Assembly (NCBI GenBank): GCA_030762935.1
Contig: CM060883.1
Span: 90,774,001 to 90,838,000 of the forward strand
Length of the DNA: 64,000 nucleotides
Direction of reading: 5' to 3'
Source: Hymenopus coronatus
Taxonomy: Eukaryota; Arthropoda; Insecta; Mantodea; Hymenopodidae
Part shown: positions 961 through 49,800 of the stretch, in pieces
How the letters are laid out: each line of letters begins with the position of its first letter
Position numbering within the stretch: position 1 is the stretch's first letter
Translations under genes and position numbers: made by a program
The notes under the pieces: generated by a model
Database searches by the model: none
Told to the model about the DNA's origin: nothing
Seen by the model: only the letters and a program-made list of their open reading frames with translations

Positions 961-1463
961 CGAAAAGAAACTATCCAGTCCTGAAATTGATGTTATGCTA
1001 ACTATTCTAGTTAGTTGAAATCAATAATCGCCTTTTTCGATAATAGTTGTTAAATTATAGATGATTTTTATGAAATTATTCAAAGTCTGTTTTTGGTGGT
1101 TCTATTGAATGTAATACTACTGATACGCGTAACCAGATTTATGATGAAGTTGGTGTTTGTAGTGTAACAAATGAGTTGGTTCATGAGATAATATGGCTCT
1201 TCAAGTCAATACTTTAATTTCTTAAGACTCATAACGTAATTTACGCTCGTAAACTGCTTTGTAACACGTTGCTATGTGAAAGTACATACCGACGTGTTTA
1301 TGCTTTTGCAATAGAAGTCTGCTTTTGAGACGGAAGTAGATAAAATATTTAATTGGAATAACCAATTTTTACTCTCAACAGAATCTGGAAGTGCGAACAT
1401 GAATGTGCTTCATTACATAGTACTTGGTGGTCTGAAACATGGCTAACAGTATACAGCTTCGTG

Positions 1464-1464
<1 letters not shown>
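961..1464. other. AT-rich stretch without recognisable gene
   Basis: No coding signal, RNA gene or known repeat was recognised here on either strand. Confidence 0.45.
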
Positions 1465-1500
<36 letters not shown>

Positions 1501-1617
1501 CTCTCTCCTCTCTCTTCTCTCTCTCCTCTCTCGTCTCTCTCTCCTCTCTCTTCTCTCTCTCTCTCTCTCCACTCTCTCCTCTCTCGTCTCTCTCTCCTCT
1601 CTCTCCTCTCTCTCTAA
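1465..1617. repeat. (CT)n/(GA)n microsatellite
   Basis: About 150 bp of CT repeats are interrupted by CACTCTCC, TCTTCTC and TCGTCTC variants that themselves recur, so blocks of the tract have been duplicated. The leucine/serine-rich and arginine/glutamate-rich ORFs on the two strands are products of this tract. Confidence 0.97.
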
Positions 1618-1851
1618 TATGGTTTGTTATATAATGACTTTGTAAAGTATAACTGAACTACAGCATTCTGTTTGAAACGGTAACAGTACACACAAAAGAA
1701 CGTTTTTACATTCTCTGCCATTTACTTGGAGTGACTCAGACCACGTGAAGCAAGCGAGCAAGAGATTGTGCTGCATAAACATTTTCTGTACTGGCGTAAA
1801 GTTCTTGCAGCGATAAACCTACACACATACATAATTATTTATTGCAAACAA

Positions 1852-2055
1852 ATCGGCCTCCCTGCCTCTTTGGGTGGAGGTAGCGTATCTGCCTCACATT
1901 CAAGAGTTCCCGAGTTCGAGTCTCGGTTAGGGTGAGTAACTCGGATAACGTTTCTTTACGGTGGTTTCCCTTATCGGAGAAGACTTATGTCGAGTAATGT
2001 TATGGGCCCAGGGCTACGGGTCCAACTTAACCTACCAAGTTTAACTACCAAAAAA

Positions 2056-2094
<39 letters not shown>

Positions 2095-2136
2095 AATAAT
2101 AATAATAATAATAATAAAAAAAATAAAAATGAAATG
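1852..2136 (+). repeat. tRNA-derived SINE with (AAAT)n tail
   Basis: A tRNA-like head contains GGTGGAGGTAGCGTA and a B box GAGTTCGAGTCTCGG (about 1,912-1,926). A short unique body follows, then a tail of AAAT repeats and A-rich sequence (about 2,050-2,136). This is a head-body-tail SINE layout on the plus strand, from a family different from the 622 and 33.05-kb copies. Confidence 0.75.
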
Positions 2137-2706
2137 AGTAGAGAAAGAAAGAAAAAAAAAACAAGCACTACGGAGCAACAAGACCCCTCTAATTCCTCAG
2201 ACCCCATCGCCCTTTTCTCGTGCTCCAATGTTGTATGAAGTAGTTTGTACTACAGCCAAAAATTCGATTTTGAGATTTAAACAAAACACACGTTTTGAGA
2301 GTCCTGTAAACCAAATAAGCAAAAGATACTTGTATGGATATAAAGTCGGATAAACACCAAACTTAAGGTTAAGTTCAGCCGAAAACTCACAAGGAAAATG
2401 TGTCCTAATTTACAGTTTTTGCAAAAACAGTTCTAACGAGTTTCATTAAAATATCTTATATTTAGGATACTTGCATGACCAATATCACGTAACAACTCGA
2501 TTCTGAGATATCTATAGACACTTATACATACATATATGTATGTATATTAAAGACATTAAGTATTTCCGAGATATTCGTTGCTACCTACTATTTTAAATGT
2601 TCCAATGTTACATTTATTGGAGTGCTAAGACACCATTTGCTTGTTTCTCGTGGGTCATGCAACGAATATATAAAACCCAGCTTACCGCAACTACGAACAA
2701 TAAAAA
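2137..2706. other. AT-rich stretch without recognisable gene
   Basis: Contains a small (CATA)/(TATG) patch near 2,525-2,545. Some internal family-P-like wording appears near 2,270-2,470 ('gagatttaaacaaaacacacgt'-like, 'attaaaatatcttatattta'), which may be an old reverse-strand fragment. Nothing else was recognised. Confidence 0.35.
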
Positions 2707-3516
2707 AACCTGATGTGTTCCATTCACATGAGCTACCCTACATCTCTGTAACAAATTGTTGTTAGTAAGCTTTTTCTTGTGTCTACTTCATGATAATCGA
2801 GATTAAACGAGCAGAAATGTCTTCTTGTAAGAAAAGGGAAATAATGGAATACACTAGCCTAAAGTACTAGTCAAATCTTTTAAAAGCTGGTTGCCATGTG
2901 GTTGAAATCCGTTTCTTTGCATTGCCAGGACTTGACAAACTCCGTGTATGAAAAGTTTAAGAATTTTAAAACTGAAACCAATAACCAGCATTATCTCAAA
3001 AATGTTCAACTCTGCGAAAAAAAAGTGTATGACATTAGTTATTTGCTTCAACGAGATATTCTATGTTGTGCAATAAGTTTTTGTCTATCACTTACAGTTT
3101 ACTAGTTATGCAACATCAAAAAAAATTCATCCTTAAAAGAGGCCTTCAGAGGATATTCCCAGAAAATTCAAGTTATGTGTTATGTGTTTAAATATACGGT
3201 GCTTTAATCAAAATCGTTGTTTTGAGAAAATCAAAATGTTCGAAAAATTTTCCATGTAAAAGGTAGTTTAGGGTGGGGAGATTTTCCTCAAAATCCTTGT
3301 GTCGTATCCTTGAAAGACTTATACACCAAGTTTAGTATTTTACCGACTTCGTTTTTGCGTTATCGCGTTCACAGACACACATTTTCTAAAAAGCCTTTTT
3401 TGGATACAGGGACTCTAAAACGTGTATTTCCGGGGAAATCTCGGTATCCAATTTTTTTGTGGAATACAATACCTTCTCTATACACTATGCACTTATTACG
3501 TGTAGAGAAATAAAAA
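2707..3516 (+). repeat. Family P interspersed repeat, forward copy
   Basis: The 5' end CCTGATGTGTTCCATTCACA follows an A-run. The 3' end is the near-palindrome TTCTCTATACACTATG...CGTGTAGAGAAA. The interior matches the other copies ('gacattagttatttgcttcaacgagat', 'cagaggatattcccagaaaattcaag'). The internal CA microsatellite is almost absent here. The short ORFs are coincidental. Confidence 0.85.
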
Positions 3517-3731: not shown

Positions 3732-6274
3732 AATTGAGAGGCTCAGCGCCAGAGGGAGCTATCCCAGAAATAGCTAAATTTGAGAAACAAAGAGTTTTAT
3801 TGGAGTTGTTGATTTGGTGAAAAACGTAATATTAAGGTACAATTTTTTTTAAATCAAGTACTTGATCCACATTTTGAAATATCGTAGAAAAGACAAAAAG
3901 TGATATTTAAGTCTTTTTTTTTTATTTAGTACTGCAAACTGTATTATTTACTATAAATTTACTTATGCAGAGAGAAACTAAACATGATATTACTCATAAA
4001 ACACAAAAAAACTGAACTACACAATTTCTGCAACCAGTTCAGTTGGTTCTACATTATTTGATCTAAAATCATAAAAAGATTGGTACACTGCTGGGATGTA
4101 TTTTCTGATGGACTGTAGATCCCAGAGTTTCAGCTCAGGAATATAGTAATGGGAGATCCGCCATCACTCTAGACATGAAGGATGATTCTACTACAAGTTG
4201 AGTACTATATTTAGTCTTCTCCCTGGCATCGTTTTGAAAAACTGAACTCTTTTTCATTCTTCCAAATCTGAGAAAGTATCTTTGAAGAACAACGTAGTAG
4301 ATCTTTTTCTTACTTTCACAGTAGAAACTTTCCGAATATGAAAGATATTGAAATCATTATGTTTTGAATTACCTTTAGTAATGTTGTTATTCAGTTTCTA
4401 AAATCTTCTTTCTTCATTTCAATAACTGCATATGGCTTTGCAATCCGAGCCTTGCTGACCAACTTATACCACTGGCCTGGTGTATAAATGTGGCTTGTAT
4501 GTCTTAACTTCTGCTCCACAACTCCAAAATCCCGGTCACCGAGTAGGAAGGTGTGTCCTGGTATCAGAAAATAGTGTTGAATCTCACGGAAACAAGGGCG
4601 TAGTAAAATTTAAAAATAGTGTTATTCTTGCTTAGCCCTGAGCATGAATCAGAGAAAAAAATCAGCCTCCTTTTATCAAGAGTGTTAGCTGGATTTTTAA
4701 TACAGTATAATGCCACTTCAGACGATCTTCTATAAGCTGTATTTTCTGGCCACATACACATAAAGGCATTGTTAGTGCCCCAAGATTATACACCCACATT
4801 GTCTGTTGGGATTTTTGGTGTGGGTAGTGCTTGCTGTAAATCACATGTTATCAAACAGTAGTCACAATCTTCATTCACTGTACCTGCTTTAAACTTCTTA
4901 AGTAGTGAATAAGCTTTACATTGATGTAATGTGACTTGCAGAGAAACATCTTCAGTTTCTGAAGCCACCCACTCATCACATGTATCCGAAAGAGGTAATT
5001 TAAATGCAATGTTGAGCTCTGTATTAAATACCTTAGAATAGATATACTGTGAAGCAGAAATTACAACTTTCTGTGCACATTCTTTTTCATGTAATCGATA
5101 CATCTCAGCTACAGGATGGACATTGCTTGTATACATTTTATTTGGATTATCACGGCGAGAATACTGACTTGTATATTTTACAAACTTCTTTATATGATTC
5201 CTAACAGATTTCAACTTTATTTCAGGTGTTTTATTATGAACATTCCCATGTTTACCTCTCTGATCAAGGCGAGGTGTTCCGACATAACATGTGCTTCAAT
5301 TTCAAGATCGTCTTCATCATCAATTCTCTCAGTTTGTTTTAACTTGTCATCACCCCTAGCAGTACATAGTCTTTTCTTTTTTTTTTTTTCTTTTTTTTGA
5401 AATAGCAAAAAGTCACAGAAAGCTTTCATACACACTCTCTTGGATTCACCATTATGTACTTTAATAGCATACTCAAAAGAATATTTACTCCTAGACACTG
5501 TTTCATCACCATGGGTGCACTCTCTTCAATGAATTAATCCAAACAAAAATGAGTTTTGAACATCATAATGACCCAAACTATAAAAATTCTTACAAATGTC
5601 TTCTTTTGTATCGTGGTCTAATGAGTAACTGCACCAGTTGAGATCAGAGTTGGCAGGACGGCTACTACCGAGGCATCCAGCTCCTTGTTTGCGAGCACAA
5701 ATTTGTTTCTTCGTTGTATAGCTTTCATATTCCTCACTATTGTTTCTTTTTCGTTTAGCAACAACTTTTTCCCATATGTTTTGCCTGCATATTCGTTTCT
5801 TTCCTTCACTAGCTATACTATTTAATTCCATTTTGAAAAACAGAACAAGCTACAGCATATTATAATGCCTACAATTACAACTATTTACATAATATTCTTA
5901 ATGTTTAATAATAATCTTACATATTATTCTGTTTCGCGTATTAAGGCCTAAAATGTTATTTGAATATATAACTTGCAAAATCATTATTTCTTGACCTATA
6001 GTTTAAACAATAAACAATACTATTGCAATAGTTAAAGTTGTATAAGGTTGGTGACATTGTTCTTTAAATATGAGGCAACTTGACAGTGGGATATTTCCAT
6101 CTGGCACAAACTTTCTCACTTTGGAAAACGACAGTTTCTGTAAGTTACTGTAGATGGTGCTCTAATATCACCAGGATTTGTACAGTAGATGAGAGACGGC
6201 CGAAGCTGTCTAAAAACAAAACACAAAAAAACTCATTTGTGCGATAGCTCCCTCTGGCACTGAGCCCCTCAATT
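3732..6274 (-). mobile_element. DNA transposon with 28-bp terminal inverted repeats and AATT flanks
   Basis: The left end (3,736-3,763) begins GAGAGGCTCAGCGCCAGAGG. The right end (6,243-6,270, read on the minus strand) begins GAGGGGCTCAGTGCCAGAGG. The two match at 26 of 28 positions. Both ends are flanked outward by AATT (3,732-3,735 and 6,271-6,274), which is either a 4-bp target duplication or the palindromic tip of the inverted repeat. The element is about 2.54 kb. Its only large gene runs on the minus strand from about 5,831 to 4,390. The superfamily is not recognised. Ends with 20 of 28 matching positions bound a small element at 40.91 kb. Confidence 0.85.
4390..5831 (-). pseudogene. Unclassified transposase-like protein, frameshifted (candidate DDE/DDD enzyme)
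   Basis: The gene reads from ATG at 5,831 down to about 4,390 with a stop at about 5,520 and frame changes near 5,240 and 4,795 and between 4,650 and 4,570. The N-terminal part is basic (KRKRNNSEEYESYTTKK). The middle is open (4,786-5,214). The C-terminal part is open at about 4,400-4,562. Three acidic patches have the order and spacing of an RNase H-fold transposase: ITCDLQ (Asp codon at 4,840-4,842), FFSDSCSG (Asp at 4,648-4,650, about 64 residues on) and GDRDFGVVE (Asp/Glu at 4,516-4,537, about 40 residues further). Proteins with this DLQ / SDSCGG / GHxF-GDxDF layout are, to my knowledge, common in arthropod genomes as uncharacterised repeats. The catalytic assignment is inferred from the motifs and from the inverted repeats that bound the gene. 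A poly-T/CT tract at 5,376-5,400 interrupts the coding region. Confidence 0.7.
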
Positions 6275-40909: not shown

Positions 40910-41518
40910 AATTGAAGGGTTGAGAACCATAGTGGGCCAAGCACCATTTTTTAAAAATGGAGAAATAGAAGGTCAATGTTTCTTCAACATTATAATTTAT
41001 TGAGCCAAGTTACACATAATAACTAAATGCCACAGCAATCTAGATATATTTTCTATCTTATGTTAGTACAACATTAATGTGGCTTCATGCAAAATTAGGT
41101 TTTACAGTTATTTATTGGGAGCTATTTTCCTTTGCTGGGATTTGGCCCAGCCTAAAGGAATGTAACTGGGACATTTCCATACATCTAATCAATGTCCTGC
41201 TAATCATCATTATTGACTTGCACACGCAAACTCTTGTAAAAATCATGATTCACTGGAGGAATAAATGGTAGCATGGACATAAGATCATCATATGTGGTAG
41301 TGTGATTTGCTGCATGGATTTGGACCACTCTGACTCTAACAAAATTTTTAGTTTCATTTAGACCGATATTTTGATGCTCTACTGTTTGTAAACGGGAAAT
41401 GCTGGACATGGCCCACTGCAATATAAAATGAATAACCATAAACTATACCGACAGATGGCAACAGCTCAATTTTGACCTCACATGGAGATGGCCCACTATG
41501 GTTCTTAGCCCTTCAATT
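40910..41518. mobile_element. Small inverted-repeat element with AATT flanks (MITE-like)
   Basis: The left end (40,914) begins GAAGGGTTGAGAACCATAGT. The right end on the minus strand (41,514) begins GAAGGGCTAAGAACCATAGT. The first 26 bases match at 24 positions. AATT flanks both ends, as in the 3.73-6.27-kb transposon, and the termini match that transposon's at 20 of 28 positions. Internal length is about 600 bp, with one unrecognised 79-residue minus-strand ORF (41,200-41,439). Interpreted as a non-autonomous relative. Confidence 0.75.
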
Positions 41519-42699
41519 GTTAGTGAACCACTGATTCACTCAAAAGATCCGGTTTACTTAAGTGAGAGAACCATTGAACGGCGCTCACGAAAGTGAATCG
41601 TTTTACCCACTGGGTATGAGCAGAAAATGTGTAATATTTCAGAAAATATAACGTTTTGAAAACCAATACCAAACAAATGAATCATTTGTAGTACCCCTTA
41701 CGAAACTGTAAATCGTCATTGGGGTATGCCATTTCAAAATAATGTGATATCTACTCGTGGTTTATCGGGGTAAATGTGAGTCTTGGAGAAATTAATTCCC
41801 TGTTGGAATGGTCTCGTTTTAGTTCAGTTGGTAGGAGTAACAGGACGGAGAGCATGGATCTATGTCATTGAATATTTCAGATTAAGCTCTGTCTTTCCTA
41901 TTCTTACCAACGTTTATATTTCAATTTCACTTTAACTGAGGATGGTTACTTCTGATACAAGTGATTAAAATGTTGTGAGTAGGAACGAGGCCGTGGGCCC
42001 AGTACAGTTATCCCACGAGCAATATAAAACAACGTTAACACGTGCATCATACTCCATTTTTAGAGAGTTCTCCATATTTATAGACATATATAATTATAAA
42101 CAAATTGTTTTAACCATTTCACGGAGTTCATGTATAATGGTCTGCGAAATTCAGTAGTTGCCCTGCTTAGCATCAGTGCTCACAACATAATGACTTACTC
42201 GTACAGACCGAAAACATTCTATTCAACGGAGGCAGTGTCGCTGTTGTAATTTTGCTCCCTCGCTGCTTGCATAATTGCGTCTGGTTCAGCAGATTCCATG
42301 TTCATTACATTCAAATCATCCGCCATTTTATGGTCCGATACGAGCTTTCAGAGTCTACTAGAATGAGACGTATAAACCAAAGTTGGCTACATTGGAGTGT
42401 TATAGTAATTTTATAATACTGAGTGAGAGAACTGTCTACTTTTAACACTGCTGACATCTGGTAGAATACCTACCGTTAGCACCAAAAGTCTAAACAAATC
42501 TTTGCAGAGATATTTACCTTCACGTTTCATTATACCTACAAAGGAAGTGGGAGAGTCAGATGTTCAACAGCTGGATGGTATTTACACCAGGTGGCCCAAC
42601 GTGTGCAGAAAGAGTAAAAGAGTAGCAGAACTCAACGGGCTATTTCAAGTTGACTGAGCTAGCTTCATTTTACCCATTTTGCTTATTGAGTGAGGTGGG
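41519..42699. other. Region with no firm gene; candidate small first exon at 42,219-42,326 (minus)
   Basis: On the minus strand AAAATGGCGGATGATTTG opens a 35-residue acidic ORF (MADDLNVMNMESAEPDAIMQ ...), with a splice-donor-like CGAGTAAGT about 15 bases past its stop. It is the most exon-like sequence outside repeats, but nothing downstream confirms it. Confidence 0.25.
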
Positions 42700-49014: not shown

Positions 49015-49800
49015 CTTTAAGAACACATTTGGGAACTGCTACTTGAAACATAACAGGTTTGTTGTTTATGAAAATAAATGGGCAGGCTTTGGAACACATT
49101 TGGGGACTTCTTTGACACATAAGAACAGACTTTGTTTATGAAATAGATAGGTAGACTTTGGAACACATTTGGTGACTACTAGTTGACACATAAGAACAGT
49201 TTTGTTAATGAAATAGAATGGCAGACTTTGGAACACATTTGGGGACTACTAGCTGACACATAAGAACAGTTTTGTTTATGAAACAGAATGGCAGACTTTG
49301 GAACACATTTGGGGACTACTAGCTGACACATAAGAACAGTTTTGTTTATGAAATAGATAGGCAGACTGTGGAACACATTTGGGGACTACTAGCTGACACA
49401 TAAGAACAGTTTTGTTAATGAAATAGAATGGCAGACTTTGGAACACATTTGGGGACTACTAGCTGACACATAAGAACAGTTTTGTTTATGAAACAGAATG
49501 GCAGACTTTGGAACACATTTGGGGACTACTAGCTGACACATAAGAATAGTTTTGTTTATGAAACAGAATGGCAGACTTTGGAACACATTTGGGGACTACT
49601 AGCTGACACATAAGAACAGTTTTGTTTATGAAATAGATAGGCAGACTTGGGAACACATTTGGGGACTACTAGCTGACACATAAGAATAGTTTTGTTTATG
49701 AAACAGAATGGCAGACTTTGGAACACATTTGGGGACTACTAGCTGACACATAAGAACAATTTTGTTTATGAAATAGATAGGCAGACTTGGGAACACTCTT
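49015..49800. repeat. 70-bp tandem satellite, about 11 units, with higher-order structure
   Basis: Unit wording: AACACATTTGGGGACTACTA, GCTGACACATAAGAACAGTT, TTGTTTATGAAACAGAATGG, CAGACTTTGG. Unit starts fall at about 49,161, 49,231, 49,301, 49,371, 49,441 and onward. Variants (AAATAGATAG, TTAATGAAATAGAATG, AAACAGAATG) recur every third unit over part of the array. The repetitive minus-strand ORFs are products of the array. Confidence 0.96.

Follow-up and report, generated by a model that had tools for sequence, protein, structure and literature searches.

A DUF7869 gene on an AATT-flanked DNA transposon of Hymenopus coronatus points to a family of transposases

A 64,000-nucleotide stretch of the mantis Hymenopus coronatus genome (GCA_030762935.1, contig CM060883.1, positions 90,774,001 to 90,838,000; hereafter the window) carries, at positions 3732–6274, a small DNA transposon with the remains of a gene for a DUF7869 protein. 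We conclude with high confidence that it is a cut-and-paste DNA transposon, originally autonomous and now decayed, and that the DUF7869 protein was its enzyme. In sequence, the conclusion draws on inverted ends, a 4-bp AATT (more broadly AWWT) target-site duplication, many copies, and an amplified form that has lost its interior. Features of DDE/D cut-and-paste elements recur here: terminal inverted repeats on dispersed copies, a target-site duplication of fixed length (4 bp, from empty sites and one AAAT/AAAT pair), and a predicted RNase H-like fold with acids at the catalytic positions.

Ends, copies and target-site duplication

The transposon proper spans 3736–6270 (2,535 bp). Inverted-repeat comparison and an end-pattern search place its left terminal inverted repeat at 3736–3771 (plus strand), on the 3' side of the gene, and its right one at 6235–6270 (minus strand), on the 5' side. 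AATT stands outside each, at 3732–3735 and 6271–6274. With AATT included, 3732–3771 and 6235–6274 are 90% complementary over 40 nt. A 28-nt end pattern allowing up to three mismatches finds only two sites in the window, both of them element ends, and none in 100 shuffles. A chance origin of the ends is ruled out by these shuffles and by the empty backward control of the genome-wide search described below. A preliminary description made from the letters alone had reported inverted ends with AATT on both sides, and this is borne out.

The assembly containing the window (3.13 Gb, 384 contigs) holds many relatives of the element. A 142-amino-acid piece of the gene gave at least 153 genomic matches at E <= 0.001 (150 of 809 candidates were scored). 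The 30 best loci, one of which is the window copy, offer 60 possible ends; 50 were recognised (score of at least 16, start within 2 nt), and 42 of those 50 are flanked by AATT. Where both ends are present, AATT stands on both sides in 17 of 21 copies, the exceptions being L007, L008, L021 and L025. Genome-wide, the end pattern with up to two mismatches occurs at 695 sites (353 + 342), against 0 + 0 in the backward control. Among 100 listed sites, all with no mismatch, we paired by eye 22 sets of facing ends, 21 of them about 670–805 bp apart and one 2,650 bp; 20 of these pairs have AATT/AATT flanks, and the other two have AACT/AATT and ATTT/AATT. AATT-flanked copies elsewhere in the genome, which the preliminary description had proposed to look for, are thus plentiful.

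Four of the short copies were read from end to end: each joins the first 267 bases of window 3732–6274 to its last 551, and they are 92–95% identical among themselves. The roughly 800-bp short form looks as a deletion derivative moved in trans would look. A minority of ends show AACT, ATTT or AAAT on one side only (G000, L069/070, L073/074, L013, L025, L052), a pattern in which decay and a looser AWWT target are indistinguishable.

Since AATT is palindromic, finding it at both ends is by itself no proof of duplication: the four bases are their own reverse complement, so that at most copies a target-site duplication and a continuation of the inverted repeats look alike. Empty sites separate the two. 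Copies L005 and L006 interrupt a host repeat that occurs often in the window; with their flanks brought together around one AATT, 20 (L005) and 18 (L006) unfilled copies of the repeat align across the junction without a gap at the four bases. The unfilled copies, 68–79% identical to the joined flanks, thus hold the four bases once; some of the alignments are gapped a few bases beyond the junction. The unfilled site reads GATT in 15 of 20 cases for L005 and 13 of 18 for L006, and AATT once per set, at the same place in L032. Both insertions occupy the identical place in the host repeat, so they may not be independent: a single old insertion could have been duplicated along with the repeat. Further evidence comes from a sister element, L040, with AAAT on its left and AAAT on its right. 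This non-palindromic direct repeat cannot be produced by inverted ends and shows duplication, albeit in a single case. Given the empty sites and the L040 pair, we reject the idea that AATT belongs to the inverted repeats as scarcely credible. Judged from these sequences, AATT is a 4-bp target-site duplication, its length now fixed by the comparison of empty and filled sites that the preliminary description had suggested. Two further loci were left out of the count: L029, whose right flank matches the same place in the repeat with no alignment spanning the junction by the rule used, and L003, whose spanning site is too diverged. The repeat that received L005 and L006 is an interspersed sequence of ~900 bp that contains a run of GT/CA microsatellite, present in both orientations and about 65–88% alike at no fewer than 15 places across window 2699–46309.

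The gene, its family and the predicted fold

We searched 1,595 six-frame pieces of the window with a profile built from 73 relatives (alignment A1). The gene emerged as seven collinear pieces on the minus strand, running from 5849 to 4020 (best E 5.5e-38), with an ATG at 5831–5829; the same profile gave a best E of 1.6 on 1,568 pieces of the reversed window. The pieces cover profile positions 4–88, 100–179, 149–321, 339–409, 405–471, 478–517 and 551–577, of which the sixth (E 3.1) and seventh (E 0.0017) are weak and were retained for their position. In-frame stops, frame shifts and the loss of a stretch before the second acid mark the copy as a pseudogene, which as it reads would yield no working enzyme. 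The element had been called complete, which is right for its ends but not for its gene; similarly, its single gene of ~480 codons holds as one gene between the ends but not in length, as fuller relatives mostly have ~600–660 amino acids.

The protein belongs to Pfam PF25273 (DUF7869), which carries no assigned function there, so that the earlier label "unclassified" was accurate for Pfam. PF25273 matches 69 of the 73 relatives and, in six inspected, spans beta-2 to the last catalytic helix or beyond; the broken pieces of the window gene have no direct match to it and are connected through the relatives' profile. Among 7,994 candidates scored, 474 matched the family at E <= 0.001. The named relatives belong to the gene sets of aphids, beetles, butterflies, bugs and a locust, where the names shown describe them only as uncharacterised, hypothetical, unnamed or DUF7869 proteins.

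In AlphaFold2 models of two relatives (pLDDT 87 and 91), the core is RNase H-like and similar to those of retroviral integrases and of Mos1/Metnase, and the three conserved acids occupy the catalytic positions of the fold. Numbered as in P0012, the first is D353 at the end of beta-1 (window codon 4842–4840, minus strand), the second D428 after beta-4 (4650–4648, minus strand), and the third lies on the last core helix (4514–4537, minus strand), where sequence, translation, model and conservation leave D472 (4537–4535) and, seven residues on, E479 (4516–4514) as candidates. Across the 73 relatives the median spacing is 75 residues from first to second acid and, from second to third, 41 to the D or 48 to the E; the pattern is D-75-D-41-D with an E seven residues later, the D being better conserved than the E. 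The spacings of about 64 and 40 noted earlier belong to the decayed copy, while the resemblance to an RNase H-fold transposase noted with them agrees with the models.

The predicted architecture is an RNase H-like DDD/E core that follows a helical region in which a CxxC and an H are invariant. Five P0012 residues outside the catalytic triad (D291, C293, C296, H322 and E396) are invariant in 73 of 73 relatives. Zinc binding is a possible role of the CxxC/H set (C293, C296, H322); E396 lies after core strand 3.

Searches of Pfam, NCBIfam and PHROGs linked neither the relatives nor the window pieces to any known transposase family beyond DUF7869. These searches used natural relatives and the pieces in place of the reconstructed consensus first envisaged. 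We take as chance an HTH_32 match (E 0.008) in one of 73 members and the matches of P0033 to a transposase N-terminal model (E 0.11) and an integrase PHROG (E 0.07). Against solved structures, a sequence search with L031 found no match and one with the alignment found two at chance level. Viral contigs gave 13 pattern matches with no relative among them. A viral structure library gave no match at E <= 0.001, its top rows including two IS4-type giant-virus transposases with poor superposition.

Sister families and the enzyme of transposition

From the match list of the 142-amino-acid piece we chose 32 further loci with more distant genes (L031–L062). End pairs are present in 11, nine identified by script and two by eye (L031 and L038, each with one base gained or lost near an end). 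The flanks of these 11 read AATT on both sides in nine, AAAT/AAAT in L040 and AAAT/AATT in L036. Five loci have one end only, with AATT in L032, L033, L037 and L061 and AAAT in L052. Within the fetched stretch, none of the known ends was found at the remaining 16, which may be truncated, extend past that stretch, or belong to other families. Together with the window family, at least five DUF7869 end families can be distinguished, with a common GA(A/G)GGG tip and AATT or AAAT flanks.

The fifth of these is represented in the window by a short, internally deleted element at 40914–41518 (ends GAAGGGTTGAGAACC...; inverted repeat 34 nt, 91%), flanked by AATT at 40910–40913 and 41519–41522. What is left of a DUF7869 transposase inside it, at 41203–41442 (minus strand), corresponds to the C-terminal end (profile positions 550–584, E 1.6e-5); a full-length relative of this element, L059, measures 2,677 bp. 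In L033, two long, near-perfect inverted arms of gene sequence (226 and 208 nt, within 1007–3354 of that locus) suggest a nested or inverted rearrangement.

The same gene thus recurs in at least five families that have ends of one kind, and the DUF7869 protein is very probably the enzyme that moves the element. It might instead be a passenger or captured host gene on a transposon moved by another enzyme, as could be argued from relatives annotated with no more than the uninformative names above and from the 13 of 44 open frames of at least 100 amino acids, in 12 two-ended elements (the 11 sisters and the window copy), that do not match the family profile; the other 31 do. None of those 13 exceeds 149 amino acids, however, and the one that recurs runs antisense to the gene. 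The same gene also accompanies different inner end sequences in each of at least five families, and its predicted fold and acids are those of a transposase. We therefore consider a passenger gene very unlikely. At 21 of the 32 more distant loci no end pair was seen. With that qualification, we saw neither of the two findings named beforehand as adverse, copies of the gene without these ends or a fold with unclustered acids. Same-ended copies, empty sites and the predicted fold support the original suggestion that an uncharacterised arthropod protein is a transposase.

If DUF7869 is the transposase, the enzyme would bind the inverted repeats, for which its N-terminal part may serve, and would cut both ends with two metal ions held by D353, D428 and D472 (or E479). 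Joining of the cut ends to the target would then follow, at AATT and with a 4-nt stagger.

Relation to described superfamilies

We tentatively propose, at somewhat less than even odds, that DUF7869 proteins are the transposases of an undescribed superfamily, common in insects and present in a spider, characterised by an AATT (AWWT) target-site duplication, 5'-GARGGG ends, a D-75-D-41-D-6-E core and an invariant CxxC/H element before the core. An evenly balanced possibility is that they are ordinary members of the named superfamily Sola, specifically Sola2, that Pfam has not labelled. Sola transposases are characterised as DDD enzymes, and in the 73 relatives the third D is the better-conserved acid. 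As printed in PMC3627910, Sola2 elements have 4-bp, AT-rich AWWT duplications (ATAT, AAAT, ATTT), a pattern that the AATT and AAAT flanks here fit. The same paper gives a Sola2 transposase of 888 amino acids as an example, compared with mostly ~600–660 here, and terminal inverted repeats of 12–21 bp, compared with about 36–40 here; moreover, duplications of one length are common to unrelated superfamilies. The Repbase rule, as printed in PMC4455052, assigns superfamily membership by profile searches converging below E 0.005.

piggyBac and Kolobok also duplicate four A/T bases, but their target is TTAA (PMC9587614), in contrast to AATT and AAAT here. The hAT/P/MuDR/Kolobok/Dada group has a C/DxxH motif between the second D and the last acid (PMC9587614); a fitting string occurs in only 7 of 73 relatives and in four different forms, so C/DxxH is not a conserved motif of DUF7869. 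Tc1/mariner elements, including Mos1 and Metnase, share the predicted fold, but typically duplicate TA (PMC4495683) rather than AATT and had no sequence match in the PDB set. The retroviral integrase core is likewise similar in predicted fold, at a sequence identity of only about 10%, and in contrast to the retroviral setting the window family has inverted ends and no reverse transcriptase was seen. We found no paper naming DUF7869, PF25273 or PTHR10773 in a literature search that excluded most subscription papers and Repbase Reports; in the literature on Sola, AATT duplications and new superfamilies, again without most subscription papers, no title or abstract opening named DUF7869 proteins.

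A transposase reading would assign a role to a large protein family whose present annotation is "uncharacterised". Unless domestication is demonstrated, its named insect relatives are best handled as products of transposons. For annotation, the constant ends and the duplication supply a rule for finding further copies and non-autonomous forms, and the full-length relatives are material that can be assayed.

Elsewhere in the window, 49021–49796 is a tandem array of 11 copies of a 70-bp unit with 91% matches.
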